Below, one piece after another: positions 7,880 through 35,760 of a stretch of 64,000 nucleotides of DNA; within the stretch, counting starts at the first letter, position 1; each line of letters starts with the position of its first letter. Both the position numbers and the translations under genes were made by a program. This stretch comes from Janthinobacterium sp. UMAB-56. GTDB lineage: Bacteria; Pseudomonadota; Gammaproteobacteria; Burkholderiales; Burkholderiaceae_D. The DNA is taken from positions 1 to 64,000 of the forward strand of contig NZ_LT607655.1 in NCBI RefSeq assembly GCF_900095265.1. Direction: 5' to 3'. A model generated the notes under the pieces. It was not told the origin of the DNA, ran no database searches, and saw only the letters and a list, made by a program, of their open reading frames with translations.

Positions 7880-9276
7880 TTGCCTCCATATTTCTTGAGC
7901 AATGCATCGATATCAGATGGCGCGCTGTTGGAAGGCGGCGCCACCGGGTTGGTAACGGTAGCGGCTTCCTTCTTGTAATTGAAGCGGGAGCCTGCATCTT
8001 TTCTGCCGGTCGACAATTCGTATTGCCGCTCCAGATTGTCCTTTTGTGCGGACATCAGATGCAGATAGCCGCCGATCACACCCTTCAGCTGCTTGGTGGT
8101 TTTGGCGTTGTCAAGCAAGTGCGACAGCTCTTGCCGCTCTTCCACACCGCCACCGCCGGCCACAATCGATTTAAGGACCTCTTTCGCCACAATGCCTTTT
8201 ACAGCGTCAAAGTTCGTTGGCGCCGTACTGCCAGTGCTCTGCGCCACCGTGTTGGCAATCTTGTTGGCCAGCGGGACATTGCCGTTCCCCAGCGCGTCGA
8301 CCAATTGATCCAGTTGCGACAGGTGGTCAGTTGCGGTCGAAAAGGAACGAATCGAATTGCCGGGCGTGCCGGTGGAGAAATCACGCATCGCCTTTTGCTT
8401 TGCGTCGTACTCTGTCGCATCGAAATTGGGGTATTTCGCGTTCACCCGGTCCATCAGGTTGGCAATTTTCGGATTGCGAAGCGCATAGCCGGTCGGCGCC
8501 TTCATGCGGCCTTGGCCGATTGCATCAACGGACGACTCCGAAAGGTCGGACGGAGCGTTGCCTTCTTCCTTGCTCTTATCGAATGTCAGTCGTTCGCGCG
8601 CCGTGCGGGCGCTGCTGTCGGTGGAGTACCTCGATGTATTTGCCGAGAGCACTGCATTGGCGTCAGGTTTGATGTAGGACATCGCATCCTTCGCCTTCAT
8701 GACCTGCGCCATCACGCCATTGGCCCAGCCGTTCAGGCTCTTAGGGTCATCGCTAATGGCGCCGAGCTCGTCGAGCTTGGCCTGAGCCACCTGCGGCGAG
8801 ATCACTCCGCTGTGCGCAGCTGCATTCAGCCCTGATTGGATTTGCGCCTTGGTCACCGCGGGGTTGTTCACCCAGGCATTGGCGAGCTGGCCGGCGATTT
8901 CAAATTGATGCATTGCCGTCTCTTGCAGCGACTTGCTGGTGTCGGCCTTGGTTTTCCCGACGTCAGCGGTTTTTGCGTCAATCTCGGCGGCGGTCTTGCG
9001 CTGGTCTTGAAATTGCTTGCCGTATGCCAGCCCGCGTGCGCCATAGCCTTGGGATGCCAGGCCGCGCACCACGTCGTCGCCGCTCTTGCCATCGGCAAGC
9101 AGCTGCGACAGGGAGTTTTCGCCTGCGCGCTCACGCTGGCTGTCGGCGAACGTCATGTCGGCCAGCCGGTTCTGGTTGCGCGCCTGCTGTACTTGCGCGA
9201 CCTTGCCATAGGTGTCAAGAGGGTTGTCGAGCTGCACGCCGCGCGCTTGCAGAATAATGCTTGGGTCAAGTGTCAT
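7876..9276 (-). CDS. DNA ejection (internal virion) protein
   Basis: A 466-residue, mostly helical, soluble protein with no transmembrane segment and many Gln, Ala and Lys residues (QVQQARNQNRLADMTFADSQ). The C-terminal end, DIDALLKKYGGK, is a short motif often found at the end of podoviral ejection proteins. It sits between a gp7-like gene and the large ejection protein. No enzyme motif was seen. The role is inferred mainly from its place in the late operon. Confidence 0.65.
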   Translation of the reverse strand: MTLDPSIILQARGVQLDNPLDTYGKVAQVQQARNQNRLADMTFADSQRERAGENSLSQLLADGKSGDDVVRGLASQGYGARGLAYGKQFQDQRKTAAEIDAKTADVGKTKADTSKSLQETAMHQFEIAGQLANAWVNNPAVTKAQIQSGLNAAAHSGVISPQVAQAKLDELGAISDDPKSLNGWANGVMAQVMKAKDAMSYIKPDANAVLSANTSRYSTDSSARTARERLTFDKSKEEGNAPSDLSESSVDAIGQGRMKAPTGYALRNPKIANLMDRVNAKYPNFDATEYDAKQKAMRDFSTGTPGNSIRSFSTATDHLSQLDQLVDALGNGNVPLANKIANTVAQSTGSTAPTNFDAVKGIVAKEVLKSIVAGGGGVEERQELSHLLDNAKTTKQLKGVIGGYLHLMSAQKDNLERQYELSTGRKDAGSRFNYKKEAATVTNPVAPPSNSAPSDIDALLKKYGGK

Positions 9277-9985: not shown

Positions 9986-10441
9986 TCAGCCTCCCAGCCA
10001 TTTGCTGTAGTACGTCTCGACAGGCTCCGCGTCGATCAGCTTGAAAAGATAGCTTGCGTCCATGTGCACCTTCGAACCCATGAACCAGCGCTGTACGCCA
10101 CGGCGGCGCAGCTCGCTTTCGACGAACTGGAACATGCGCAGGCCGGCACCACCCTTACGCTTGTCGGGGCGCAGGTAAAAGATATCGGTGGTGCAGGTCA
10201 GGCATGTGCGGTAGTGCAGGCCCGGGGCGATGAAGCCGATGTAGTAGCCCACCAGCTCGCCGGCGTCGCGCAGGGTGACGAACAGCAGGCCGCCCTGGCG
10301 CTCGCGCTCGATGTAGACGGCATATTGCGGATCGAGCGGCACCTGATCCTGATTCAAAGCCAGTTCGCGGTAATGACCGGGCAGCAGCGCCTTCAGCTCG
10401 GGCAGGTGCTGCTCGAAGTTTTCGATATGGCAGGTGATCAT
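9986..10441 (-). CDS. GNAT-family N-acetyltransferase
   Basis: The 151-residue product has a GNAT fold: a strand GLLFVTLRDAGELVGYYIGF, then TTDIFYLRPDKRKGGAGLRM, where RKGGAG fits the acetyl-CoA pyrophosphate-binding signature (R/Q-x-x-G-x-G/A). It ends with a C-terminal helix and strand. The substrate is unknown. It overlaps the hydroxylase-like gene upstream by an ATGA junction and lies inside the late structural operon, so it is probably made late in infection. It may modify a virion or host protein. GNAT genes in this position occur in other podoviruses. Confidence 0.8.
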   Translation of the reverse strand: MITCHIENFEQHLPELKALLPGHYRELALNQDQVPLDPQYAVYIERERQGGLLFVTLRDAGELVGYYIGFIAPGLHYRTCLTCTTDIFYLRPDKRKGGAGLRMFQFVESELRRRGVQRWFMGSKVHMDASYLFKLIDAEPVETYYSKWLGG

Positions 10442-11007
10442 TTGGAGGTCCTCACGTCAATAATCATGTGGATGCGGTCGTCGGCGCTGTTGTTGATCAC
10501 CTCATGTTCCTGGCTGTTATCGAACCACCACAGCTCGCCGGTAGCCATGTAGGTAGATTCGTCGCCGGCGCGGAAGACCACGCCGGGCTGGCTTTGTAGC
10601 ACCAGGTGGAAGCGGCTGTAATAAGCAGTGTGGGCGGGCGTGTCGGAATGCGGGTAAATCAGGCCGCCTGGTGCGATCTTGTTGATCATCACTCGGCCCA
10701 GGCGCTCGCCGTCGACGCGCGCCATCACGCCCATCACCAGGCGCCGCGCCTCTGGCAGCACCGCATAGGCCGGATGGTCGATGCTTTCGTGCTGGTCGTA
10801 CTTGCTGAGGTGATCTTTCAGCTCGGCTTCGGTTTCCAGCACGGCTTTTTCCGGGAAACGCAGCATGATCGATTCGATCTGCGCAAAAGGGCCTTGCGGA
10901 TAGTCGCGCAGGTAGGTGTCGGCCTTCCACAGGCCGGGCCGGCGCTTGATCGCCAGCAGCAGCGGCATGATGTCGATTCCGGCGGTGATGAGTTGGAAGT
11001 TTTTCAT
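10438..11007 (-). CDS. Aspartyl/asparaginyl beta-hydroxylase-like protein
   Basis: Probable Fe(II)/2-oxoglutarate-dependent dioxygenase of 189 residues. The segment IAPGGLIYPHSDTPAHTAYY carries the H-x-D iron-binding pair. RFHLVLQSQPGVVF, ELWWFDNSQEHEVIN and DDRIHMIIDV supply the distal His and likely 2-oxoglutarate-binding region expected of the family. The substrate is unknown. The gene is coupled by 4-bp overlaps to the GNAT downstream and to the small structural gene upstream. A hydroxylase and an acetyltransferase side by side in a late operon suggest post-translational modification, but this is inference. Confidence 0.78.
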   Translation of the reverse strand: MKNFQLITAGIDIMPLLLAIKRRPGLWKADTYLRDYPQGPFAQIESIMLRFPEKAVLETEAELKDHLSKYDQHESIDHPAYAVLPEARRLVMGVMARVDGERLGRVMINKIAPGGLIYPHSDTPAHTAYYSRFHLVLQSQPGVVFRAGDESTYMATGELWWFDNSQEHEVINNSADDRIHMIIDVRTSK

Positions 11008-21577: not shown

Positions 21578-22645
21578 TCAGGATTCATGCGGTTTGCCGG
21601 GCTGGTCTTCGCCAGTTTCTCGCCGTGGTGTGAATCCCATTTTTTCGGCCATGCGGCCCTGGGCTTGCACAGCGATGTCGAGGTTCTTCTCAAGGTAGGC
21701 CATGGTGGTGCTGGGGTTCTTGTGACGCATGACCTTCTGGATGGTCTGGATCGGCACGCCGGATTCCGACAGCAGCGTGGCAAAGCTGCCGCGCAGGCGA
21801 TGCGGCGTGATGCCTTTCGTCTTGCAGTGGGCGTTGGCAGTAGAGATCGGACGGCGCGCGAAGCCGGGCGGCTGCTGGCTGCCGTCCTTGCGCGCGGTAA
21901 TCAGGCCTTCGGGTTGGCGCCGGGGTTGCAGGTAGTCGACCAGCCAAGCAGGCATAGGCACCGGCTCGGCTTCTTTGCCCTTGGTGATGCCGGGCGTGTA
22001 GGTGCGGCGCTCCCAGTCGATCCATTCCCAGCGCGCGCTGGCGGCTTCGCTTTCGCGCAGGCCCAGGCCGAACATGAAGCGGATGGCGGTGGAGACGGCG
22101 GGGGAGCGGCGGCCGGCGCCGTCGATGGCATCGAGCCACTGCATGGCCACGTCGAGCGGCAAGATCTTGCGCGGGCGCTTCTGTGTGCTGAGCATGGCCA
22201 CGTTCCATGGCCGGCATGCCAGCATTCCCTGCGAAACAGCCCAATTCGTCACCAGCCGCATCACGCGCAGCCAGTGGTTGGCCGTGGCCGGCTCGCGCGT
22301 GGTCAGGTGTTCGTTACGGGCCAGCTCGATGTGGCGCGCAGTGATCTCGCTGACGAGTAGATCGCCCAGGTCGTACAGGTGCAGGCGGTAGCAGGTGCTG
22401 ACGCTGCGCACGTGGGCGGCGCTCGACACCGGGCCGCGCACCAGTAGCCACTCGGCGAAGAGCGCGCGCAGCGTCGGTACCGGTTTACCGCCGTTCGTGC
22501 GCACCACCTCTTCATCGTAGGCGCGGCTGGCCACCGCTTCAGCGCGGGCCTTGGCGCGTTCGCGCGTGCTGCGCTGAACGCGGCTGCCGGCCACCTGGAA
22601 GCGGTAGTGCCAGATTTTTTTGACCTTGAACAGGGCGAATGTCAT
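21578..22645 (-). CDS. Second tyrosine recombinase/integrase
   Basis: A full-length tyrosine recombinase of about 355 residues: catalytic Arg in GLGLRESEAASARW, His and Arg in PHRLRGSFATLL, His in VMRHKNPSTTMA and nucleophile Tyr in AYLEKNL. It is unrelated in detail to integrase 1. It sits in the prophage interior between the P-like replication gene and the late-regulator gene, far from both prophage ends. It may be a resolvase, a remnant of an older element or an alternative integrase. The ATG at 22645 is taken as start; a GTG at 22654 is also possible. Confidence 0.88.
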   Translation of the reverse strand: MTFALFKVKKIWHYRFQVAGSRVQRSTRERAKARAEAVASRAYDEEVVRTNGGKPVPTLRALFAEWLLVRGPVSSAAHVRSVSTCYRLHLYDLGDLLVSEITARHIELARNEHLTTREPATANHWLRVMRLVTNWAVSQGMLACRPWNVAMLSTQKRPRKILPLDVAMQWLDAIDGAGRRSPAVSTAIRFMFGLGLRESEAASARWEWIDWERRTYTPGITKGKEAEPVPMPAWLVDYLQPRRQPEGLITARKDGSQQPPGFARRPISTANAHCKTKGITPHRLRGSFATLLSESGVPIQTIQKVMRHKNPSTTMAYLEKNLDIAVQAQGRMAEKMGFTPRRETGEDQPGKPHES

Positions 22646-22725
22646 GGGCGCCACCAGGCGGATTGGTTGGGTGATTTCATCGTGCTACTTCCTCTTGTGG
22701 CTGAAAAAACTTGTTTATGGCATCG

Positions 22726-26669: not shown

Positions 26670-26710
26670 ATTATCAGGTTAAACCTAATAATTAGTCAAG
26701 GTTAAACCTT
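26670..26710. promoter_or_regulatory. cI/cro operator region with PR-like promoter
   Basis: Two copies of the perfect 11-bp palindrome AGGTTAAACCT lie at 26676-26686 and 26699-26709, 23 bp apart. On the minus strand a promoter with -35 TTGACT (26694-26699) and -10 GATAAT (26670-26675), 18-bp spacer, drives cro. One operator fills the spacer and the other abuts the -35, so repressor binding would block RNA polymerase. The same arrangement recurs upstream of the DGR operon at 28300-28360. Confidence 0.8.
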
Positions 26711-26735: not shown

Positions 26736-27449
26736 ATGAAATTTCCTGAAATATTGCGGGCTCGCCGTAAAGAACTGGGGCTTACCCAGCAAGACATAGC
26801 CGATATCTGGGGCATAAAATCCGTCAACGTTTCCGACTGGGAGCGAGGAAAGGGTATGCCCGAAACAGCACGCCTCGGCGCACTAGCAAAACGCCTAGGG
26901 ATGACCATCTCGGAATTGATGGGGGAAGCTACGCCTCGCCTTGACGCAAAAGATCGCACTGACGGCTCACGTGGAGCATCAAAGGTTAATGCGATTCACC
27001 CTGACGACCCGATGGACGATGACGTGGTCTACGTCCCGGAGTCGCGGATTGAATTTGCTGCAGGCAATGGCCGTAATGCCATGTATGAGCTGATCGAGGA
27101 TCAGGAGCCGGCAAGCTACCGCCTGTCCTGGTTTCAAAAATACGGAATCAACCCCGAGCGCGTGCGTCGTTTCCGCGTTTCCGGCGAAAGCATGGAGCCG
27201 ATGCTATTTGATCGAGATACCATCCTTGTCAATACAGACGAAGTAAACATTATTGATGGAAAAATGTACGCCATTCGATACGGCGACGAACTGCGGGTAA
27301 AGTATCTTTTTCGAAAACTTGACGGCACACTGACGCTTCGTAGTGTCAATCCACTGTTTAAGGACGAGGAAGTGCCGTCGCAGCTTGCGAATGAACACAT
27401 ATCCATAATAGGTCGGGTACGCGACCGCAGCGGGACAGGCGGGCTTTGA
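26736..27449 (+). CDS. CI-type phage repressor with S24 peptidase domain
   Basis: Maintains lysogeny. The 237-residue protein has an XRE-type helix-turn-helix at residues 5-60 (LTQQDIADIWGIKSVNVSDW) and a LexA/CI-like self-cleavage domain. The likely cleavage bond is Ala109-Gly110 in FAAGNG. The nucleophile is Ser152 in SGESMEP and the general base Lys189 in ELRVKYL. All catalytic residues are present, so the repressor should be inactivated through RecA after DNA damage. It is divergent from cro, and its probable operators occur both here and in front of the DGR operon. Confidence 0.93.
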   Translation: MKFPEILRARRKELGLTQQDIADIWGIKSVNVSDWERGKGMPETARLGALAKRLGMTISELMGEATPRLDAKDRTDGSRGASKVNAIHPDDPMDDDVVYVPESRIEFAAGNGRNAMYELIEDQEPASYRLSWFQKYGINPERVRRFRVSGESMEPMLFDRDTILVNTDEVNIIDGKMYAIRYGDELRVKYLFRKLDGTLTLRSVNPLFKDEEVPSQLANEHISIIGRVRDRSGTGGL

Positions 27450-27544
27450 AATTTTCCGCGACAATTCGATAGATTTCCACATAGAAATATTTCATATAAT
27501 GCAGCGGTGTAGCGTTGCGCCGAATGCTGAGCATAGGGAATGAG

Positions 27545-27823
27545 ATGAGTAAATTATTCGTAGCAATCGCAGTGCTTTTTATCTCGGGATGTGCCACTCA
27601 GACGGGAGTCATATCCACCGGGCAGGATTCATATATGATCCTCAACCAAGGCACAGGGTTCTGGGCATCGTCGAGCACGTTAGTTGCAAATGCTACCCGC
27701 GAAGCTGGAAATCATTGTGCGAACCAGCGCAAACAGCTGGAGATTCTATCAACACAAGAGCGCCCAGTTGGGTTGCGACCTGGCGCCTACCCTGAGGGAG
27801 AAATTCGTTTCGCCTGCAAATAA
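27545..27823 (+). CDS. Prophage lipoprotein A (possible lysogenic conversion)
   Basis: A 92-residue protein with a signal peptide and lipobox (VLFISGC, Cys16), so probably a membrane-anchored lipoprotein. The mature part begins ATQTGVISTGQDSYMILNQG and has two further Cys. It resembles the next gene's product: both contain a V-x2-x-GQD-[ST]-Y motif just after the lipidated Cys and end with RFACK or MFRCVD. AGGGAATG precedes the ATG. Genes directly after cI are often expressed in lysogens and act in superinfection exclusion; this is inferred from position only. Confidence 0.65.
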   Translation: MSKLFVAIAVLFISGCATQTGVISTGQDSYMILNQGTGFWASSSTLVANATREAGNHCANQRKQLEILSTQERPVGLRPGAYPEGEIRFACK

Positions 27824-27895: not shown

Positions 27896-28192
27896 ATGAA
27901 AACAATAACCACGCTTGCGATTGTCGCTTTACTCGCAGCATGTCAGTCTGTAAGTGATGTTGTGCCAGCTGGGCAAGATACCTACCTGGTCGGTGCCACC
28001 GTCCGTGGCGGCATGAGCTCAGATGCCGAAGTAACTGCCATCAGCATCCGGCGTGGCAACGAGTTTTGTGCCGCTAAAGGGAGGCGCTTTGAGATCATGA
28101 ATGCCGCCAACTCCGGCACACAAGGATGGACGCCGCAGCAGTCGCAAGTGATGTTTCGTTGCGTGGATGCGCAGATAGGCAACCCCTTATGA
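27896..28192 (+). CDS. Prophage lipoprotein B, paralogue of A
   Basis: A 98-residue protein with signal peptide and lipobox (ALLAAC, Cys16). The mature part begins QSVSDVVPAGQDTYLVGATV, aligning with the start of lipoprotein A, and carries two later Cys that could form a disulfide (NEFCAAKGRRF, MFRCVD). It is probably a duplicate of the preceding gene. It is followed 32 bp later by a strong terminator, so cI, A and B may form one transcription unit ended before the DGR promoter. Confidence 0.68.
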   Translation: MKTITTLAIVALLAACQSVSDVVPAGQDTYLVGATVRGGMSSDAEVTAISIRRGNEFCAAKGRRFEIMNAANSGTQGWTPQQSQVMFRCVDAQIGNPL

Positions 28193-28248: not shown

Positions 28249-28299
28249 GCCCGTTGATTCGGACGCGGGATTGCTCTCAACAAAATTTCAAATAATTTA

Positions 28300-28360
28300 A
28301 GGTCAAACCTTGATTATTTATAGGTTAAGCCTTGCATTAAATTAAGGTTTAACCTAATAT
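28300..28360 (+). promoter_or_regulatory. Triple repressor operator and promoter of the DGR operon (PL-like)
   Basis: Three 11-bp near-palindromes match the cI/cro operators: AGGTCAAACCT (28300-28310), AGGTTAAGCCT (28322-28332) and AGGTTTAACCT (28345-28355), at 22- and 23-bp spacing. A promoter with -35 TTGCAT (28332-28337) and -10 TAATAT (28355-28360), 17-bp spacer, is overlapped by the second and third sites. The two right-hand sites are separated by 12 bp, as in the cro promoter. The first gene, a DGR target, starts at 28400 with GGAGAG ahead of it. This predicts repression by CI in the lysogen and expression on induction. Confidence 0.75.
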
Positions 28361-28399: not shown

Positions 28400-28858
28400 A
28401 TGTCACACACCGCCAGCCTCACCGCCACACCGTTCATCACCAGCACCACGACCACCGATGTCGGCAGCCAGTCCTTCATCCCGCCAGCGTTCCAGCCTGG
28501 CTTCATTCCTGCCGCAATCGGCGCCGCTTTTGCCGGCGGCATCTATGCCGGCATCATCCGCGGCGTGGATGGCAGTCCTGATCAGCACCTGGTTCTGGTG
28601 GAAGGAGAGGGCGTTGATTTGTCCTGGTCTGCCGCCGGCGCTTGGGCAGAGTCCGTGGGCGGTTCGCTGCCGACGCGCGCCGAGCAGGCGCTGCTGTTCG
28701 CCAACCTGAAAGACCAGTTCAAGTCGGACTGGTACTGGTCGGGCACGCAGGCCGGCCCCTCTCACGCGTGGGGTCAGGATTTCGACTATGGCGGCCAGAA
28801 CGACGACCACCGCTCGTACGAGGGCCGCGCCCGCGCCGTCCGCAGATTGCCAATTTAA
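28400..28858 (+). CDS. DGR target protein 1 (DUF1566/C-type-lectin-like)
   Basis: A 152-residue protein whose last third is diversified. After a Thr/Ser-rich N-terminus, the body has the Gly-rich motif AAFAGGIYAGIIRGVDG and a ligand-domain framework (GEGVDLSWSAAGAWAESVGG, LPTRAEQALLFANLKDQF, DWYWSGTQAG). The variable repeat covers residues 116-149 and ends with the invariant GRARAVRRLPI. The fold resembles the DUF1566/formylglycine-enzyme-like C-type lectin domains used by many DGR targets, so it should display a variable binding surface. No signal peptide or membrane segment is seen, so its location (virion, cytosol or other) is unknown. It is the first gene of the operon. Confidence 0.85.
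   Translation: MSHTASLTATPFITSTTTTDVGSQSFIPPAFQPGFIPAAIGAAFAGGIYAGIIRGVDGSPDQHLVLVEGEGVDLSWSAAGAWAESVGGSLPTRAEQALLFANLKDQFKSDWYWSGTQAGPSHAWGQDFDYGGQNDDHRSYEGRARAVRRLPI
28745..28847 (+). repeat. DGR variable repeat VR1
   Basis: A 103-bp segment aligned base for base to the template repeat at 31734-31836. It differs at 11 positions, and every one is an A in the template. Changed codons are AAC to CAC, AAT to GGT, GAT or TAT, and AAC to GAC, GGC or CAC. The last 28 bp are identical to the template, the expected GC-rich homing-initiation zone. Confidence 0.93.
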
Positions 28859-28913
28859 TCCTTTATCCATTTCCTTTTCGTCCCGACCACGACATCCCAA
28901 CACGGAGCCACTC

Positions 28914-29549
28914 ATGATCAGCAATGCCGCCACGCCTTGTGCTACACCAGGCGCTGCCATCCCTCTCTCTACCTGTTCCCTTTGCCATCGCTCAGTCGAT
29001 GCCAACAGCAATGCACGTGCTGACGCCATTGTCAGCGGCTTGCTCGACGCCGAATTGTGGCCGGTCGATAGCGAGCTGGTCACCGAAATCCGCGCCATGT
29101 TCCTGGCCCATTGGGGCATGGATAAGGGGCAGGCTGATGCGCGGATGTCCCGCCTCTATTACAGCTCGGCTGCCGCTTTGGTCCCCGTGGCCGGGCCTGG
29201 TGCCATTGGCAGTGTTTACGCTGGCGGTATCTATGCCGGGATCATGCGCGGCGTCGATGGTGCGCCTGACGAGCACCTGGTGCTGATGTCAGGTCAAGCC
29301 GAGGGTGTGACCTGGGATGCGGCGTGCGCCTGGGCCAAGTCGATTGGTGGCGAGCTGCCAAGCCGTCGCGAACAGCGCTTGCTGTTCATCAACCTGAAAG
29401 ATGAATTCAAGGCTGAGTGGTACTGGTCCGGTGAGCAGGCCGGCCCCTCTCACGCGTGGTATCAGGTTTTCACCGATGGCAACCAGCTCAACCTCAGCCT
29501 CCGCTCGTACGAGGGCCGCGCCCGCGCCGTCCGCAGATTGCCAATTTAA
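28914..29549 (+). CDS. DGR target protein 2
   Basis: A 211-residue protein related to target 1 in its C-terminal 130 residues (GSVYAGGIYAGIMRGVDGAP, DEHLVLMSGQAEG, ELPSRREQRLLFINLKDEFK). An extra N-terminal helical domain of about 70 residues carries CSLCHRS and WPVDSELVTEIRAMFL. The variable repeat covers residues 174-208 and the protein ends in the same GRARAVRRLPI. The N-terminal domain may link the variable lectin-like head to a partner. GGAG lies 8 bp before the ATG. No export signal is seen. Confidence 0.83.
   Translation: MISNAATPCATPGAAIPLSTCSLCHRSVDANSNARADAIVSGLLDAELWPVDSELVTEIRAMFLAHWGMDKGQADARMSRLYYSSAAALVPVAGPGAIGSVYAGGIYAGIMRGVDGAPDEHLVLMSGQAEGVTWDAACAWAKSIGGELPSRREQRLLFINLKDEFKAEWYWSGEQAGPSHAWYQVFTDGNQLNLSLRSYEGRARAVRRLPI
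29433..29538 (+). repeat. DGR variable repeat VR2 (one codon longer)
   Basis: Aligned to the template repeat, this copy has 11 substitutions at template adenines plus one inserted codon. The template's four AAC codons after the second CAG correspond here to CTC AAC CTC AGC CTC, i.e. five. The first codon, at the edge of homology, also differs (GAG for ACG). The 28-bp 3' end is identical to the template. Confidence 0.9.
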
Positions 29550-29567
29550 TCTTTTATCCATTTCAGC

Positions 29568-29918
29568 ATGAGATCCGCCATGACTCTCGAAAACATTGCC
29601 TCAGCGTTGCCCGGAAATGCGCAAAGCTCTCCGCCGGACCGCGTGCGGCGCGTTTCCCTCGCCATGCCAAGCAAGGCGCTCTGCCTCGTTGGTGCCACCT
29701 ACAGCCTGGCCAATGGCCGTGGCGAACGGATTGCAATGGTGTCGGTTGTGCCTCAAGGGCTGGGCGCCACGCGTACCGCTGCAGCTCGCATGGCGTACTC
29801 ATCGGAAATGGCTGGAGTGATGCGTACCGCCAGCTTGGACTATGAATTATCCGGAGCGGTGGCACCGGAAACGGTCAGCTTGATGCGCCGCTTGCTCGAA
29901 GACATAGGTGCGGCATGA
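29568..29918 (+). CDS. Hypothetical protein within DGR operon (A)
   Basis: A 116-residue protein (MTLENIASALPGNAQSS, AMPSKALCLVGATYSLANGR, GERIAMVSVVPQG, APETVSLMRRLLEDIGA). No family recognised; it is probably a small alpha/beta protein. Neither start (29568 or 29580) has a clear Shine-Dalgarno. The 29568 start sits exactly as far from the conserved 26-bp element after VR2 as the Avd start does after VR3, so it is preferred. Its stop overlaps the next start (ATGA). Confidence 0.55.
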   Translation: MRSAMTLENIASALPGNAQSSPPDRVRRVSLAMPSKALCLVGATYSLANGRGERIAMVSVVPQGLGATRTAAARMAYSSEMAGVMRTASLDYELSGAVAPETVSLMRRLLEDIGAA

Positions 29919-30109
29919 GTGCCCCGGACTTGCTTTTGATGATTCGGCACTGCGCCGCTGATGCGCACGCAAAGGAAGCAAGTGATGTGGATGCGCGTGC
30001 GCACGCTTTCATCGCTGCCTTGTCGGGCGCGTTGGAGCAGCACGATGCCATCGGTGCAGAAATGGTGTTTTCAATTCTGAGCATTACCCCAAAAGGAGAT
30101 GCCAAATGA
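29915..30109 (+). CDS. Hypothetical protein within DGR operon (B)
   Basis: A 64-residue helical protein (MSAPDLLLMIRHCAADAHAK, then AHAFIAALSGALEQHDAIGA) coupled by ATGA overlaps to both neighbours. Small size and tight packing suggest a typical accessory phage early gene. No domain recognised. Confidence 0.5.
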   Translation: MSAPDLLLMIRHCAADAHAKEASDVDARAHAFIAALSGALEQHDAIGAEMVFSILSITPKGDAK

Positions 30110-30243
30110 TGGCCTTCACCGTCACCGTGCGCAGTGCAGGGCGCCTGCTGACGTATCCAGCCATCGGCAGCGACAGCTGCGCCGTGCACATGGCCGCCCT
30201 GGATCGATTCGGCGCCTGTTCCATCACCGTCAAACCAGCGTAA
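30106..30243 (+). CDS. Very small hypothetical protein (C)
   Basis: A 45-residue protein (MMAFTVTVRSAGRLLTYPAI, then SCAVHMAALDRFGACSITVK). AAAAGGAG lies 6 bp before the first ATG, and the start overlaps the previous stop. The sequence pattern is reminiscent of small phage proteins seen near early-operon genes in other prophages, but no function is known. Confidence 0.55.
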   Translation: MMAFTVTVRSAGRLLTYPAIGSDSCAVHMAALDRFGACSITVKPA

Positions 30244-30252
30244 GGAATTGCC

Positions 30253-30363
30253 ATGCGCAAGATGATCACCCTGCTGCACATGTATCGCCACTTCCGGCGC
30301 CTGGGCGCAGGCCAGTTTGGCTCTGCCCTCAAGGCTGTACGCGTCTACCAGACTGGATTCTGA
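30253..30363 (+). CDS. Very small basic hypothetical protein (D)
   Basis: A 36-residue basic peptide (MRKMITLLHMYRHFRRLGAG, then SALKAVRVYQTGF) with AAGGAATT ahead of the ATG. It lies 9 bp after gene C and one base before gene E. The tight packing supports translation. Function unknown. Confidence 0.45.
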   Translation: MRKMITLLHMYRHFRRLGAGQFGSALKAVRVYQTGF

Positions 30364-30364
30364 T

Positions 30365-30553
30365 ATGCCGCGCGCCGATCCGGACCGCGCCGCACTGGAA
30401 ATTGCGCACCACGCGCTGCAGACCACCATGTCGCTCGACGACATGCTGAAGCAGCGCCACTACGAACTGATTTTGAAATGCCTTGCCCGCCGGCACATGC
30501 AGCGCCGCGCGCGCATGGATGTGAAAAAGCTGCAAGCCAACGATCACGACTGA
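30365..30553 (+). CDS. Hypothetical protein within DGR operon (E)
   Basis: A 62-residue helical basic protein (MPRADPDRAALEIAHHALQT, MLKQRHYELILKCLARRHMQ). No domain recognised. It is the last of five small genes that separate target 2 from target 3. The cluster looks like an insertion of ordinary phage early genes between DGR targets. Confidence 0.5.
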   Translation: MPRADPDRAALEIAHHALQTTMSLDDMLKQRHYELILKCLARRHMQRRARMDVKKLQANDHD

Positions 30554-30572
30554 TTTTAACCACGAGGAAACC

Positions 30573-31187
30573 ATGGATATCAATACCCCAGCAGCACTTG
30601 TAAATACCCCGGGCGCCATTGGCGCTGCATTCGGTGGCGGCTTCTTCGCCGGCCTGATTAAAGTCGATGGCAAAGCATTCGCCCTGGTCGTGTCGCCAAA
30701 GCTGTTCGGTGAGTTCAAGGGCCGCTGGATCGCATCAGATGAAAGCGTGCCGGGCGCCGAGGATTATGCCGATGGCCTGGCCAACACGAACGCCATGGCC
30801 GCTGCTGGTAGCGAACTGGCCAAGACGGTGCGCGGTAGTGTCATCGAAGGCTTTGATGACTGGTATATCCCGGCTCGCGACGAGTTGGAGCTGATCTATC
30901 GCAACCTCAAGCCGACTGATTATGAAAACTCCGCCTCGTTCCGTGATGGTGAAAACCCGAGCAGCATGCCGATGGGGCGGCACTACACGGAAGATTGGCC
31001 GGCGCAGACCGGCGTGGCCGACTTCCGCGAAGGCGGCACGCAGGCGCTGGACGCGGTCTGGCACTGGTCCAGCACGCAGGCCGGCCCCTCTGGCGCGTGG
31101 GGTCAGGATTTCAGCCTTGGCTGCCAGTTCACCAACGGCCGCTCGTGCGAGGGCCGCGCCCGCGCCGTCCGCAGATTAGAAATTTAG
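30573..31187 (+). CDS. DGR target protein 3 (DUF1566-like)
   Basis: A 204-residue protein with the best DUF1566/C-type-lectin-like signature of the three: SVIEGFDDWYIPARDELELI, then YRNLKPTDYENSASFRDGEN and the VWHWSSTQAG framework before the variable repeat (residues 168-201). It ends GRARAVRRLEI. Its N-terminus also has the shared PGAIGAAFGGGFFAGLIKVDG-type Gly-rich motif (written here in part as AAFGGGFFAGLI). GAGGAAA precedes the ATG. It lies directly before Avd, the usual place for the primary DGR target. It lacks an export signal. Confidence 0.87.
   Translation: MDINTPAALVNTPGAIGAAFGGGFFAGLIKVDGKAFALVVSPKLFGEFKGRWIASDESVPGAEDYADGLANTNAMAAAGSELAKTVRGSVIEGFDDWYIPARDELELIYRNLKPTDYENSASFRDGENPSSMPMGRHYTEDWPAQTGVADFREGGTQALDAVWHWSSTQAGPSGAWGQDFSLGCQFTNGRSCEGRARAVRRLEI
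31074..31176 (+). repeat. DGR variable repeat VR3
   Basis: A 103-bp segment aligned to the template with 16 substitutions, all at template adenines, including the Tyr codon TAC changed to TGC. Six codons have both adenines changed (AAC to GGC twice, AAT to GGT, AAT to CTT, AAC to TGC, AAC to TTC). It is the most diverged of the three copies. The rest is identical to the template. Confidence 0.93.
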
Positions 31188-31205
31188 CCCTTTAACCATT
31201 TCAAC

Positions 31206-31580
31206 ATGGCCAACCATACCGACCTGCCGATTTCCAAAGTTGCTTACGACCTGCTGGTGGTGGCAACCGACCTGACAAAAAATATGCCCCGCGACTTCAA
31301 GGCATCGGTCGGCAAGGAAATCCGCGACGAGTGCGTGCGCTTGACGGTGCTGATCTTCCGCGCAAACGTCGCGGGCGACAAAACACCGTACCTCGACAAG
31401 CTGCTCGAGCGCGCGCAGGTGATCGAGCTGCTGTTCCGGCTTTCCAAGGATCTGCGCTTTATCTCCGTCGCGCAGTATGCGCGGGCCATCGCACTGACCA
31501 GCATGATCGGCAAGCAGGCCGGCGGCTGGAGGAAATACACCGCATCGTCGCCTGCATCTTCCCGGTCAAGGCCGAGTTGA
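31206..31580 (+). CDS. avd: DGR accessory variability determinant (Avd-like)
   Basis: A 124-residue, basic four-helix-bundle protein: LPISKVAYDLLVVATDLTKN, MPRDFKASVGKEIRDEC, LDKLLERAQVIELLFRLSKD, ISVAQYARAIALTSMIGKQA. The pattern matches the bAvd/four-helix-bundle family, in which a pentamer binds the reverse transcriptase and template RNA and is needed for cDNA synthesis. It lies between target 3 and the template repeat, as in Bordetella phage BPP-1. No Shine-Dalgarno is visible, so it may rely on coupling from the gene upstream. The roughly 150 bp after it, up to the template, have no gene and probably belong to the template RNA. Confidence 0.88.
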   Translation: MANHTDLPISKVAYDLLVVATDLTKNMPRDFKASVGKEIRDECVRLTVLIFRANVAGDKTPYLDKLLERAQVIELLFRLSKDLRFISVAQYARAIALTSMIGKQAGGWRKYTASSPASSRSRPS

Positions 31581-31733
31581 CTGTGCGAATTTTTAATCTG
31601 GTCGTGCCGCTGGCTCACAAGGCCACCGCTATGCGCACCACAGTAACCACCTGGCGGCGTCCAGGCAGGCCTGGCGCAGTTTCCCCACTGATCGGCATGG
31701 CTTTCGGTGGGGCGACGTAGATAGCACGAATTG

Positions 31734-31836
31734 ACGCAGGCCGGCCCCTCTAACGCGTGGAATCAGAATTTCAACAATGGCAACCAGAACAACAACAACC
31801 GCTCGTACGAGGGCCGCGCCCGCGCCGTCCGCAGAT
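31734..31836 (+). repeat. DGR template repeat (TR)
   Basis: Non-coding donor for the three variable repeats. In the VR frame it holds ten AAY codons (AAC or AAT), the hallmark that lets adenine mutagenesis reach many amino acids while avoiding stops. These include four consecutive AAC codons. The last 28 bp are GC-rich and identical in all VRs. It starts 154 bp after avd, and its second half overlaps the 5' end of the reverse transcriptase reading frame in another frame. Confidence 0.95.
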
Positions 31837-32940
31837 CATCCCGATGCGGACTTCACGCTCGAGCAGCTGGCCGTCGCATATTTCGACTGCCGCCGCAGCA
31901 AACGCAATACCCCCAGCGCCCTGGTGTTTGAGCAGCACCTGGAGCGTAACCTGATCAACCTGTTCGATGACTTGCAGGATGGCTCGTATGCGCCCGGCCA
32001 GTCGATTTGCTTCGTCGTCACGCGCCCGAAAGCGCGCGAGGTGTGGGCGGCCGACTTCCGTGATCGCGTCGTGCACCACCTGCTGTACAACAAAATCTCG
32101 CCTCGCTTTTACGCTTCGTTCATCAAGGACACCTGCGCCTGCATCCCCGGGCGCGGCACGATGTACGCGGCCAAACGCCTCGAGGCGAAGATCCGTAGCG
32201 TCACGCAGAACTGGGCCCGCCCGGCGTTCTACCTCAAGTGCGACCTGGCCAACTTCTTCGTCGCCATCGACAAGGACGTGCTGCGTGGGCAGATCGCCGC
32301 GCGCGTCAGCGAGCCCTGGTGGCTGCGCCTGGCCGAAACGATCCTGTTTCACGACCCGCGCGAGAACTACCAGCTGCGCGGCGAGACCGACATGCTGGCG
32401 CGCGTGCCAGCGCACAAGCGCCTGGTCAATCAGCCAGCGCACCTGGGCCTGCCGATTGGCAACTTGTCGTCGCAGTTCTTCGCCAACATCTACCTCGATG
32501 CACTGGACCAGCATGCCAAGCACAAGATCGGCGCCCGGCACTACATCCGCTACGTCGACGACTTCCTGCTGTTGCACGAATCGCCGCAATGGCTGGGTGC
32601 AGCGCTGGTCAACATCAACGAGTTCCTGCCCCGCGTGCTGCACGCCAACCTCAACCCCAGCAAGACGATCCTGCAGCCGATAGCGCGTGGCGTCGACTTC
32701 GTCGGCCAGGTCATCAAGCCTTGGCACAGCCGCACACGGCGCCGCACCGTGCGCGAGGCGGCCAGCCGTATTGCCGGCATCCCGGCGGCCGACGTGTTCG
32801 CGGCGGCCAACAGCTACTTCGGCCTGCTGCGCCAGGCGGACAGCAGCCACGCTGACCGTGCGGCGCTGGCGCGCGCGGTGATGCGGCGCGGGCATTGCGT
32901 CAACGGGGCGCTCACCAAAACCTATAGGAAATCCGCATGA
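31777..32940 (+). CDS. DGR reverse transcriptase
   Basis: Error-prone reverse transcriptase that copies the TR RNA with adenine misincorporation. The 387-residue frame has the RT motifs in order: YFDCRRSKRNTPSA (35-48), KAREVWAADFRDRVVHHLL (85-103), the first catalytic Asp in KCDLANFF (Asp156), GLPIGNLSSQ (224-233) with the DGR-type SQ instead of the SP of group II introns, and the YVDD box (259-262). The thumb follows (LNPSKTILQ, VDFVGQVIKPWHSR). The first in-frame ATG, 31777, lies inside the TR, so the first 20 residues are TR-encoded; no Shine-Dalgarno is visible and the true start is uncertain. Its stop overlaps the methyltransferase start. Confidence 0.96.
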   Translation: MATRTTTTARTRAAPAPSADHPDADFTLEQLAVAYFDCRRSKRNTPSALVFEQHLERNLINLFDDLQDGSYAPGQSICFVVTRPKAREVWAADFRDRVVHHLLYNKISPRFYASFIKDTCACIPGRGTMYAAKRLEAKIRSVTQNWARPAFYLKCDLANFFVAIDKDVLRGQIAARVSEPWWLRLAETILFHDPRENYQLRGETDMLARVPAHKRLVNQPAHLGLPIGNLSSQFFANIYLDALDQHAKHKIGARHYIRYVDDFLLLHESPQWLGAALVNINEFLPRVLHANLNPSKTILQPIARGVDFVGQVIKPWHSRTRRRTVREAASRIAGIPAADVFAAANSYFGLLRQADSSHADRAALARAVMRRGHCVNGALTKTYRKSA

Positions 32941-34940
32941 AGCGCGACCTCTTCACCATGGCCCTTGACCTGGGCAACGAATTGATCATCGACAACTTCG
33001 CCGGCGGCGGCGGCACCAGCACCGGACTGGAACAGGCATTCGGCCGCCCGGTAGATATCGCCATCAACCACGATCCCGAGGCGCTGGCCATGCACGCAGC
33101 GAACCACCCGCACACCACGCACCTGTGCGAGAGCGTGTGGGACGTCGATCCGATCAAGGTGACGGGAAATCGTCCGGTGGGCTTGGTCTGGCTCAGCCCC
33201 GATTGCAAGCATTTCAGCAAGGCCAAGGGCGGCAAGCCCGTAGAAAAACGCATCCGTGGTCTGGCATGGGTGACGTTGCGCTGGGCTGCCAAGTGCAAGC
33301 CCAGGGTCATCATGCTGGAAAACGTCGAGGAATTCAAAACGTGGGGCCCGCTGCTGGTCGAGGCCGACGGCAGTGCCAAGCCGGACCCGGCCAAGAAGGG
33401 TAAGACGTTCGACAGCTTCATCCGCCAGCTGCGCGCGCACGGCTATACCGTCGACTACCGCGAAATGCGCGGCTGCGACCACGACACGCCCACCATCCGA
33501 AAGCGCTTCTTCCTGGTGGCGCGCCGCGACGGCATCGCCATCAAGTGGCCAGAGCCTACCCATGGCGCGCCGGACAGCATCGGCGTGCGCGCCGGCAAGC
33601 TGCGGCCGTACAGAACTGCGGCCGAGTGCATCGATTTCAGCCTGCCATGCCCGTCGATCTTCGAGCGCGACCGGCCGCTGGCGCCGGCCACGCTGCGCCG
33701 CATCGCCAAGGGCATCATGCGCTACGTGGTCGACGCGGCCGATCCGTTCATCGTCGGTGCTGGCGGCCCAGCGCGCGCTGGCGAGCCGCGCCCGACGGCC
33801 CGGCCGTTCGGTACGCTGCTGGCGCGCAACGACAGCTACTTCTGCGCGCCGACCATCGTCCCGGTAACGCACCAGGGCGGCGACCGCACCGAATCCATCG
33901 GGGAACCGTTCCGCACCATCACCGGCGCGCACCGCGGCGAGAAGGCGCTGGGCGTGGCCACGTTGGTGCAGGTGGGATACGGAGAGCGTGAGGGCCAAGC
34001 GCCGCGAGCGCTGGACATTGAGAAGCCGCTGGGCACCGTCGTCGGCGAGAGCAAGCACGCGCTGGTATCTGCCGTGCTGGTCGATGCCGCCCATGGTGAG
34101 GTATCGCCTGGCGGTGTAAAGCGCTGGGGGACGGGTGCGCACGACGTCGAGGCACCGCTCGGTACCGTGACGGCCAGCGGCAACAAGGCCGTGGCCACCG
34201 CGTTCCTGGCCAAGCATTACACGGGCGTCGTGGGTTCCGACCTGGCCGATCCTATCGGTACGATCACCGCCTGCGACCACCACAGCCTTGTGACGGCTTT
34301 CTTGACCGAGCACGCCAACGCGAGCAATCAGCGCGTGATGCCGGCCGACGAGCCGCTGCGCACCATCTGCGCCCAGGTCAAGGGCGGACATTTCAGCATG
34401 GTGTCTGCGCATATCCAACGCGACATGGGCGCCAGCGTCGGCCACGCCGCCGATGCGCCGCTCGGCACGGTCACGGCTGGCGGCGGCAAGTCGGCTCTGG
34501 TCACCAGCAATATGATCAAGCTGCGCGGCACCAGCACGGCGGCCGGTACCGACGAGCCGCTTGGGACTGTCAGCGCCGGGGGCCAGCACCACGCCGAGGT
34601 GCGCTCGTTCCTGCTGGCCTATTACGGCACCGACCAGTCGCAAGGCCTGGCCGATCCGCTGGCCACCGTCACCAGCCGCGACCGGTTCGGCCTGGTAACA
34701 ATCCACGGCCAGGACTATCAGATCGTGGATATCGGCCTGCGCATGCTGCAGCCGCGTGAGCTGTTCCGGGCCCAGGGCTTCCCCGACGATTACATAATCG
34801 GCGATGACCCCGCCCAAGGACTGAAACTGACGAAGAGCGCCCAGGTGCGCATGTGCGGCAATTCTGTGTGTCCGCCCATGGCAAAGGCGCTGATTCTCGC
34901 CAACTTCGCGCATGAGCGCGAGATTGCGAGGGTCGCATGA
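32937..34940 (+). CDS. C5 DNA methyltransferase with internal repeat domain
   Basis: Phage DNA (cytosine-5) methyltransferase, 667 residues against 330-450 for typical members. Motif I is DNFAGGGGTSTGLEQAF (19-35). The catalytic Cys90 is in SPDCKHFS, replacing the usual PCQ-type loop. Motif VI is IMLENVEEF (126-132), and motifs IX-X are near the C-terminus (RELFRAQGFPDDYIIG, VRMCGNSVCPPMAKAL). Between residues 288 and 590 lie about nine imperfect repeats with the core P-L-G-T-V-T-A (for example EAPLGTVTASGN, ADPIGTITACDH, DEPLGTVSAGGQ), in place of a normal target-recognition domain. It may protect phage DNA from host restriction. It is coupled to the reverse transcriptase by an ATGA overlap. 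Confidence 0.92.
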   Translation: MKRDLFTMALDLGNELIIDNFAGGGGTSTGLEQAFGRPVDIAINHDPEALAMHAANHPHTTHLCESVWDVDPIKVTGNRPVGLVWLSPDCKHFSKAKGGKPVEKRIRGLAWVTLRWAAKCKPRVIMLENVEEFKTWGPLLVEADGSAKPDPAKKGKTFDSFIRQLRAHGYTVDYREMRGCDHDTPTIRKRFFLVARRDGIAIKWPEPTHGAPDSIGVRAGKLRPYRTAAECIDFSLPCPSIFERDRPLAPATLRRIAKGIMRYVVDAADPFIVGAGGPARAGEPRPTARPFGTLLARNDSYFCAPTIVPVTHQGGDRTESIGEPFRTITGAHRGEKALGVATLVQVGYGEREGQAPRALDIEKPLGTVVGESKHALVSAVLVDAAHGEVSPGGVKRWGTGAHDVEAPLGTVTASGNKAVATAFLAKHYTGVVGSDLADPIGTITACDHHSLVTAFLTEHANASNQRVMPADEPLRTICAQVKGGHFSMVSAHIQRDMGASVGHAADAPLGTVTAGGGKSALVTSNMIKLRGTSTAAGTDEPLGTVSAGGQHHAEVRSFLLAYYGTDQSQGLADPLATVTSRDRFGLVTIHGQDYQIVDIGLRMLQPRELFRAQGFPDDYIIGDDPAQGLKLTKSAQVRMCGNSVCPPMAKALILANFAHEREIARVA

Positions 34941-35667: not shown

Positions 35668-35760
35668 TGGCGGAGACGGTGGGATTCGAACCCACGATAC
35701 AGGTATAAGCCGTATGCATCCTTAGCAGGGATGTGCCTTCGGCCACTCGGCCACGTCTCC
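35668..35760 (-). tRNA. serX: tRNA-Ser (anticodon GCT)
   Basis: On the minus strand the acceptor GGAGACG pairs with CGTCTCC, followed by discriminator G and encoded CCA (35668-35670). The anticodon stem CATCC/GGATG encloses the loop CTGCTAA with anticodon GCT. A long variable arm (ACGGCTTATACCTGT region) and T-loop TTCGAAT complete a class II serine tRNA. Its 3' end faces the prophage, the normal site of phage integration. Symbol is generic. Confidence 0.96.

Follow-up and report, generated by a model that had tools for sequence, protein, structure and literature searches.

A three-target diversity-generating retroelement with an RT-15 RNA ahead of its template in a Janthinobacterium prophage

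The retroelement and its repeats

The DNA analyzed here (the window) is a 64,000-nucleotide (nt) stretch of contig NZ_LT607655.1 from Janthinobacterium sp. UMAB-56, and all coordinates refer to it. Positions 28400..32940 hold a diversity-generating retroelement (DGR) with three target genes that each carry a variable repeat (VR) at the 3′ end, a gene for the accessory variability determinant (Avd), one template repeat (TR) and a reverse transcriptase (RT) gene (Table 1). We consider it very probable that this is a working or recently working DGR of a temperate Janthinobacterium-type phage, with an RT-15-first layout and early-operon control. A sequence-only reading of the stretch had proposed a complete DGR with adenine-specific homing, and the TR/VR pattern, the Avd and a DGR-type RT are all there. 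The Avd-like gene and the RT that it described score above the profile cut-offs for bAvd and RVT_1. YxDD is a familiar RT motif. Both motifs of the RT, IGNLSSQ and YVDD, are intact and invariant in a 13-sequence alignment; the DGR RT motif has been defined as (I/V/L)GxxxSQ (PMC3521204).

Repeats were searched without gaps on both strands, scoring only the non-A positions of the template. TR, VR1 and VR3 match at 75/75 of these sites, while VR2 reaches 54/75 because its length differs by 3 nt. VR1 and VR3 had been described as gap-free relative to TR, with 11 and 16 differences that all fall on template adenines. The alignment confirms this, and random placement of the differences along the 103 positions would give such an outcome with a probability of 1e-7 (VR1) and 1e-11 (VR3). 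A-specific mutagenesis is known from the DGR of phage BPP-1. The sequence-only reading had listed VR2 without an alignment. This repeat is real and A-specific, but it needs a 3-nt gap, which has 14 equally good placements in an AAC run. With that gap VR2 matches 74/75 non-A sites; from TR position 3 onward only A sites carry base changes, the sole non-A difference being a C to A change at TR position 2, at the left edge. Slippage of DGR RTs in AAC repeats by multiples of three has been proposed (PMC12875486). The rest of the genome (6.1 Mb, 82 contigs) contains no further copy of TR or VR, the next match having an E value of 0.08. The outcome of diversification at this locus is A-specific.

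We surveyed 173 RT loci: six from phages, six from genomes of the same genus, 80 from a set of genome contigs (the best 80 of at least 566 relatives), 80 from a set of viral contigs (the best 80 of at least 582) and the window. RT identity was at least 58% in 138 loci, 132 of which have a TR and at least one VR. The other six (L034, L053, L065, L145, L165 and L168) have no detectable TR/VR in the fetched stretch, which for L145 includes only 123 nt before the RT. The 132 loci are not independent, as L023 equals L029 and L024 equals L111 (one prophage in two collections), and they comprise 116 distinct TRs. Within the genus, an RT at E 1e-40 or better occurs in 7 of 40 genomes, including that of UMAB-56. 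Nine loci have one VR, 87 have two, 31 have three, four have four and one has five. Three targets had been presented as exceeding the classical one-target case, which is correct; they are, however, not unusual, with at least three VRs in 36 of the 132 relatives. Several VRs were found in about 1/7 of DGRs in 2012 (PMC3521204) and in 271 of 948 in 2019 (PMC6642488).

Taken together, the 272 distinct TR-VR segments have changes at 3414 of 8431 A sites and at 67 of 19,472 others. The resulting rates (40% of A sites, 0.2-0.6% of other sites) overstate the bias because the detection score penalizes non-A changes, which does not affect the window's own alignment. To compare orthologs, we paired 103-nt VRs with >85% identity over the 150 nt upstream (23 pairs listed), which left VRs with indels unpaired (VR2 of the window, one VR of L022 and one of L023). 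The TR is identical in the window, L022, L109, L110, L112 and L023. The 15 pairs with identical TRs show differences at 11-17 of the 28 A sites but at just 0-3 of the 75 remaining sites; every pair varies at A, and identity in the 150 nt upstream of the VR is 86-97%. Three pairs with L024 (one TR change) differ at 14-17 A and 1-2 other sites, and five pairs with L025 (17 TR differences) at 8-16 A and 4-6 other sites. Variation at VR adenines among related prophages had been named beforehand as the observation to look for. The A sites do differ and the rest hardly, and therefore the DGR has been active.

Two relatives deserve mention. The TR of L024/L111 gained one A where all three VRs have C, encoding Ala in place of the Gly kept in relatives, which amounts to a naturally occurring experiment on mutagenesis at template adenines. 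The proximal VR of L023 (about 8261-8362) has one extra base relative to TR that frameshifts the end of its target, which suggests that homing can leave indels.

Table 1. Features in and around the retroelement (window coordinates)
Feature	Position	Strand	Remarks
Operator-like palindrome CAGGTTAAACCTA	26675..26687	.	upstream of cI
Operator-like palindrome AAGGTTAAACCTT	26698..26710	.	upstream of cI
CI-like repressor	26736..27449	+	HTH_3 and Peptidase_S24
Terminator-like stem-loop	28224..28240	+	ahead of DGR operon; pattern match alone, in a region with fewer such matches than shuffles
Operator-like palindrome AAGGTCAAACCTT	28299..28311	.	before target 1
Operator-like palindrome TAGGTTAAGCCTT	28321..28333	.	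before target 1
Operator-like palindrome AAGGTTTAACCTA	28344..28356	.	before target 1
Target gene 1 (T1)	28400..28858	+	152 aa; presumed lectin-like: weak Lcl_C, phrog_4245
VR1	28745..28847	+	ungapped 103-nt match; 11/28 template A changed, 75/75 others identical
Target gene 2 (T2)	28914..29549	+	211 aa; T1 paralogue
VR2	29433..29538	+	A-specific; one AAC-type codon more than TR
Target gene 3 (T3)	30573..31187	+	204 aa; presumed lectin-like
VR3	31074..31176	+	ungapped 103-nt match; 16/28 template A changed, 75/75 others identical
Avd	31206..31580	+	bAvd 45.6 bits (cut-off 40); phrog_3206
RT-15 RNA (RF03018)	31546..31736	+	Rfam, 176 bits (cut-off 82); avd 3′ end to first TR bases
TR	31734..31836	+	103 nt; 28 A and 75 non-A sites
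DGR reverse transcriptase	31777..32940	+	RVT_1 45.1 (cut-off 29.6); probable start at ATG 31777 inside TR
C5 cytosine methyltransferase	32937..34940	+	4-nt overlap with RT stop

RNA before the template and the start of the reverse transcriptase

The RT-15 RNA, the RT start inside TR and the operators described below were absent from the sequence-only reading and were added by the present analysis. RT-15 fills the 153-nt gap between avd and TR, and no spacer separates TR from the RT gene. A search of 31400-32700 for the Phage_DGR RNA (RF03022) returned nothing plausible even to E 10. In the BPP-1 control, Phage_DGR was detected after TR and RT-15 was not. Among close relatives scanned with Rfam, RT-15 was present in 10/10 and Phage_DGR in 0/10; among more distant DGR loci (8 + 6), RT-15 was found in L076 and L078 only. 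Both RT-15 sequence blocks, ending 1-8 nt before TR, occur in 127 of the 132 close loci and in none of 132 control stretches; the remaining five loci keep one block. For 30 loci, the consensus fold of the 200 nt before TR has an energy of -41.8 kcal/mol, whereas column shuffles average -10.9 and reach -23.3 at best; 28 of 44 pairs show double changes, compared with at most five in shuffles. The 200 nt at the RT start (from 20 nt past reference codon 31837) reach -0.9 kcal/mol with 0/5 such pairs. A spacer-like RNA hidden in the RT gene found no support: there is no covarying fold, and third-base variability is near average for codons 21-60 (1.40 and 1.38, mean 1.38) and slightly reduced for codons 1-20 (1.14, compared with 1.20 for codons 161-180).

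To our knowledge, the DGR mechanism has been detailed mainly from one element, that of BPP-1. Its spacer RNA, located 3′ of the template, both recruits the enzyme and provides the primer (PMC12875486); by analogy, RT-15 may recruit RT and Avd. Among the papers listed in a search of the open-licence literature, none links RT-15 to DGRs, although the limits of this search preclude proof of novelty, and the database record of phage Cruim01 already lists RT-15 adjoining the RT. The RT RNA motifs were reportedly described by Weinberg in 2017.

The window resembles BPP-1 (NC_005357) in having an RT, an Avd, one TR and a target with a 3′ VR, all phage-borne and on one strand. In BPP-1, however, avd abuts TR, a 144-nt spacer between TR and brt holds RF03022, and the one target is a tail protein encoded beside tail genes. 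In the window these places are taken by the RT-15-filled gap, by an RT start within TR and by three targets next to cI operators. Six phages are more similar: Magia (MT701587), Shewanella phage QDWS and the Pseudomonas phages Cruim01, Haboob, LPPA56 and SC_8_H2H8. Their RTs are 62-68% identical, and they share with the window a TR that abuts or overlaps the RT as well as A-only repeats. RT-15 is recognized by Rfam in four of them, by annotation in Cruim01 and by its sequence blocks in Haboob; Avd is annotated in Magia and, as a four helix bundle, in Haboob. These phages differ from the window in having two VRs each in the stretch examined and different backbones.

A TR that overlaps the annotated RT open reading frame (ORF) is a known arrangement. 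It defines structural group 3 of DiGReF (Schillinger 2012, PMC3521204), in which several VRs are also known and whose overlap is seen in the window; the part of the group's description available to us mentions neither frame locking nor an upstream RNA. Counting back from codon 31837, the RT frame of the window is closed by a stop at 102 nt; between this stop and +87 it contains a single ATG, GTG or TTG, namely ATG 31777. Conserved RT residues start at about codon 11. In-frame ATG, GTG or TTG codons up to +30 are confined to TR in 33 of the 132 loci, including the window. A long RT with a frame open far upstream through RT-15 was rejected for the window lineage because of the in-frame stop at -102. 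The exact motif used to examine this occurs in 49 of the 132 loci; 33 of them have it in frame with the RT (32 with an open path to the RT) and 16 have it out of frame.

Within TR, the RT frame lies at +1 relative to the target frame in 126 of the 132 loci and at +2 in six (L035, L057, L070, L071, L149 and L163), where an ATG is always present at +3 behind TR. These figures replace a first assignment (101 loci in phase 1, 22 in phase 0 and 9 in phase 2) that had chosen among several open frames. Measured from the final Arg codon in the VR frame, the AYxDC motif of the RT lies at ten different distances in 109 loci, all equal to 1 modulo 3. The other loci comprise 13 without an anchor, the six of the phase-2 group and four in another phase (L013, L049, L068 and L121), whose anchors were taken to be in the wrong frame since their final assignment is phase 1. 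The number of loci counts for less because of shared ancestry, and the ten spacing lengths are the more independent figure. The frame comparison argues that the TR-RT overlap is used and is not an accident of annotation. It indicates that RT translation probably starts inside TR in the window, and inside or through TR in most relatives.

Repressor sites, target products and neighboring genes

In a CI-controlled early operon, such as that of lambda pL, an operator motif occurs both at cI and before the operon. This arrangement is seen in the window sequence. Palindromes like AAGGTTNNACCTT occur twice before cI and three times before target 1, where they are 22-23 nt apart and the last ends 43 nt ahead of the ATG. 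With up to two mismatches, the window contains 19 matches, a number reached by 3 of 100 shuffles, and they form clusters only at these two places. Locus L023, whose cI is 97% identical, shares this arrangement apart from some base changes. Prophages with other repressors have their own motif at both places, for instance CTTGCACTTAAATTTAAG in L111 and ATATTAGGAGTAG in L025, and also L115, L123, L058, L121 and L047; in L025 three sites precede the first target, two of them with two mismatches.

We also located, in whole loci (37 after 3 duplicates were dropped), the best repeat of the region upstream of cI. Among the 33 loci with a match score of at least 11, this repeat falls in the interval from cI to the first VR in 27 (7.2 expected by length), although three of these (the window, L023 and L014) are ties with a site elsewhere. 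At scores of at least 12 the count is 24 of 27 (two ties), and at scores of at least 14 it is 15 of 15 (2.7 expected, no tie). The cI operator-like motif before target 1 thus places the targets and the DGR in an apparent left-early operon, and most likely the targets, Avd, template and RT form one operon under the predicted control of CI. In the hankyphage, silencing a CI-like repressor raises DGR activity (PMC12135933). Its repressor link is similar, but its target is a tail fibre, and the accessible text of that report describes no operator at the target. In an open-licence literature search on this link, no other DGR paper was among those listed.

The sequence-only reading had described the targets as DUF1566/C-type-lectin-like genes with VRs at their 3′ ends. 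The VR placement holds for all three, but the scores for Lcl_C (DUF1566-like) of T3 (31.8) and T1 (19.4) are both under the cut-off of 34.9, and the profile does not match T2. T1 and T2 are 66% identical over 124 aa; T3 is 71% identical to T1 across the last 42 residues and about 30% to T2 over 205. No match to T3 was found by sequence in the PDB. By eye, no N-terminal signal is evident in the targets, whose hydropathy peaks sit further in. The smallest targets of related prophages, at 120 aa, are slightly longer than one lectin domain. The products would be lectin-like.

The targets sit beside the cI operators and not among late genes, and a tblastn search of the window's structural genes found no target-like stretch (one 32-aa match, E 0.5, on the terminase strand). 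Across the clade, cassettes adjoin cI, recombination or methylase genes in phages of differing tail type. Magia is a myophage whose DGR cassette has already been noted (PMC7883833), while Haboob and Cruim01 have genes for a tape measure and for a tail tube or tail terminator, with no sheath in the annotated stretches viewed. This argues against a tail-type-specific fibre, although a decoration or tip protein would still be compatible. Most likely the targets encode small, diversified binding proteins that are produced at an early stage of the lytic cycle. They could well act early inside the cell or on the host surface; receptor binding on the virion is a serious possibility, and some other role appears improbable.

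The methyltransferase downstream probably shares an operon with the RT. The prophage had been called a podovirus, for which the evidence is weak: its portal is 23-26% identical to portals including those of Pelagibacter HTVC phages, which we take to be podophages, and PHROG matches include connector, head and DNA ejection proteins. No tape measure or sheath was matched in the subset of window ORFs scanned against PHROG. Tyrosine integrases are encoded twice on the minus strand, at the contig start (91-1122) and between terminase and replication genes (21581-22654). The right end of the prophage is probably at a tRNA-Ser(GCT) (35668-35760); an imperfect 24-nt repeat (3 mismatches) lies near the contig start at 34-57 and resembles the 3′ end of a tRNA or tmRNA. 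Between cI and the DGR operon, two small plus-strand ORFs (27515-27823 and 27896-28192) look lipoprotein-like by eye, have no PHROG match and are possible lysogenic conversion genes. Within the structural block lies an aspartyl/asparaginyl beta-hydroxylase-like gene (10441-11007, minus strand; PF05118, 1e-18), and the gene adjoining it (9989-10441) is acetyltransferase-like.

Alternative explanations and implications

We propose that an RNA spanning RT-15 and TR would be copied by the RT with Avd, that template adenines would be misread and that the cDNA would replace the 3′ ends of the three lectin-like genes, steps that are modeled on BPP-1. In contrast to BPP-1, the template RNA would have its structured part ahead of TR, with none seen after it. 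The early operon would be silent in the lysogen and switched on by induction or infection; the target products might be carried by virions or might work inside the host cell or at its surface.

Several observations weigh against this account. Homing in BPP-1 requires a hairpin/cruciform just downstream of the VR (PMC3240598). No BPP-1-type hairpin was found behind the three VRs of the window, where the best perfect stem is 4 bp, so this element of BPP-1 homing is lacking here although the VRs have been diversified. In operator comparisons that required a CI-like gene (four queries) on the DGR strand, far enough from the ends and the VR, 40 of the 132 loci passed the filters and eight (seven distinct prophages) beat all their controls. 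The window was not among them, as 2 of its 47 controls match as well. L023/L029 failed because the first VR detected is not that of the first gene, and the other 29 loci did not beat their controls. Binding of CI to the operator-like sites is predicted from sequence. No Shine-Dalgarno sequence is evident by eye before ATG 31777, and 88 of the 132 relatives also have an in-frame start upstream of TR. A preference for AAT over AAC that creates ATGs in TR is slight (39/249 before G vs 79/784 elsewhere, p 0.02), and selection for ATG by this route was discarded as too weakly enriched. Diversification was seen between prophage lineages and speaks for past activity; present activity is a presumption.

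Hairpins do occur behind VRs elsewhere in the clade. A perfect stem of at least 7 bp is present in 50 of 264 distinct VR 3′ flanks and begins 30-39 nt after the VR in 39 of them; the mean best stem is 5.0, compared with 4.0 in shuffled flanks, and the folding z score is below -1.5 in 71 of 256 flanks vs 34 of 268 control stretches. These G+C-rich hairpins at a fixed distance belong to Pseudomonas and other relatives and not to the eight prophages of the genus, in which none of 26 VRs folds better than z -0.7.

The missing hairpin would also be expected of a decayed DGR whose repeats are relics no longer diversified, as would the frameshifted target of L023. We nevertheless regard decay as very unlikely, since the RT motifs are intact and the pairs with identical TRs differ at 0-3 of 75 non-A sites, against 3-14% in the 150 nt upstream, while their A sites differ in all 15. 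Another explanation, also quite unlikely, is that RT synthesis begins at an upstream start or at an unusual codon and the TR overlap is an annotation artefact. The ATG, GTG or TTG codons upstream of TR that are open into the RT in those 88 loci and the lack of a clear ribosome site at the TR ATG favor this explanation, as does the tendency of frames to stay open in G+C-rich sequence. In 33 loci, the window among them, in-frame starts (up to +30) nevertheless lie inside TR only, and read-through would still cross TR in the same frame.

An ordinary BPP-1-type DGR, with RT-15 and the RT/TR overlap incidental and the targets being tail-tip receptor-binding proteins like Mtd, would account for the same RT class, the Avd and the A-specific repeats. 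Mtd is a tested precedent, and early placement is compatible with virion proteins. We consider this explanation unlikely because there is no Phage_DGR RNA in the region searched, no covariation after TR and no counterpart to the 144-nt gap between TR and RT in BPP-1. In addition, tblastn found nothing similar to the targets among the window's structural genes, and the targets lie beside the cI operators at a distance from the late genes. The cassette is also present in the myophage Magia (PMC7883833) and in two tape-measure phages with no sheath in the annotated stretches viewed. At the other extreme, RT-15 might mark a second DGR architecture, with a protein-recruiting RNA 5′ of the template, an RT gene that begins inside the template, no 3′ spacer primer of the BPP-1 type, a repressor-controlled early operon, and free-standing small lectins used in or on the host cell (for instance against defences or competing phages) rather than as tail tips. 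We offer this only tentatively, as a combination that is doubtful as a whole.

The kind of DGR, its multiple targets and the TR-RT overlap were already known; the upstream RT-15, the RT start in TR and the operators are less ordinary. RT-15 now has a likely job in DGRs. With a large clade that has no detected spacer and carries another RNA before the template, the generality of the parts of the BPP-1 mechanism becomes testable. The operator-like sites at the targets would tie diversification to the lytic switch, and they call into question the view that the targets of phage DGRs are tail tips in every case.

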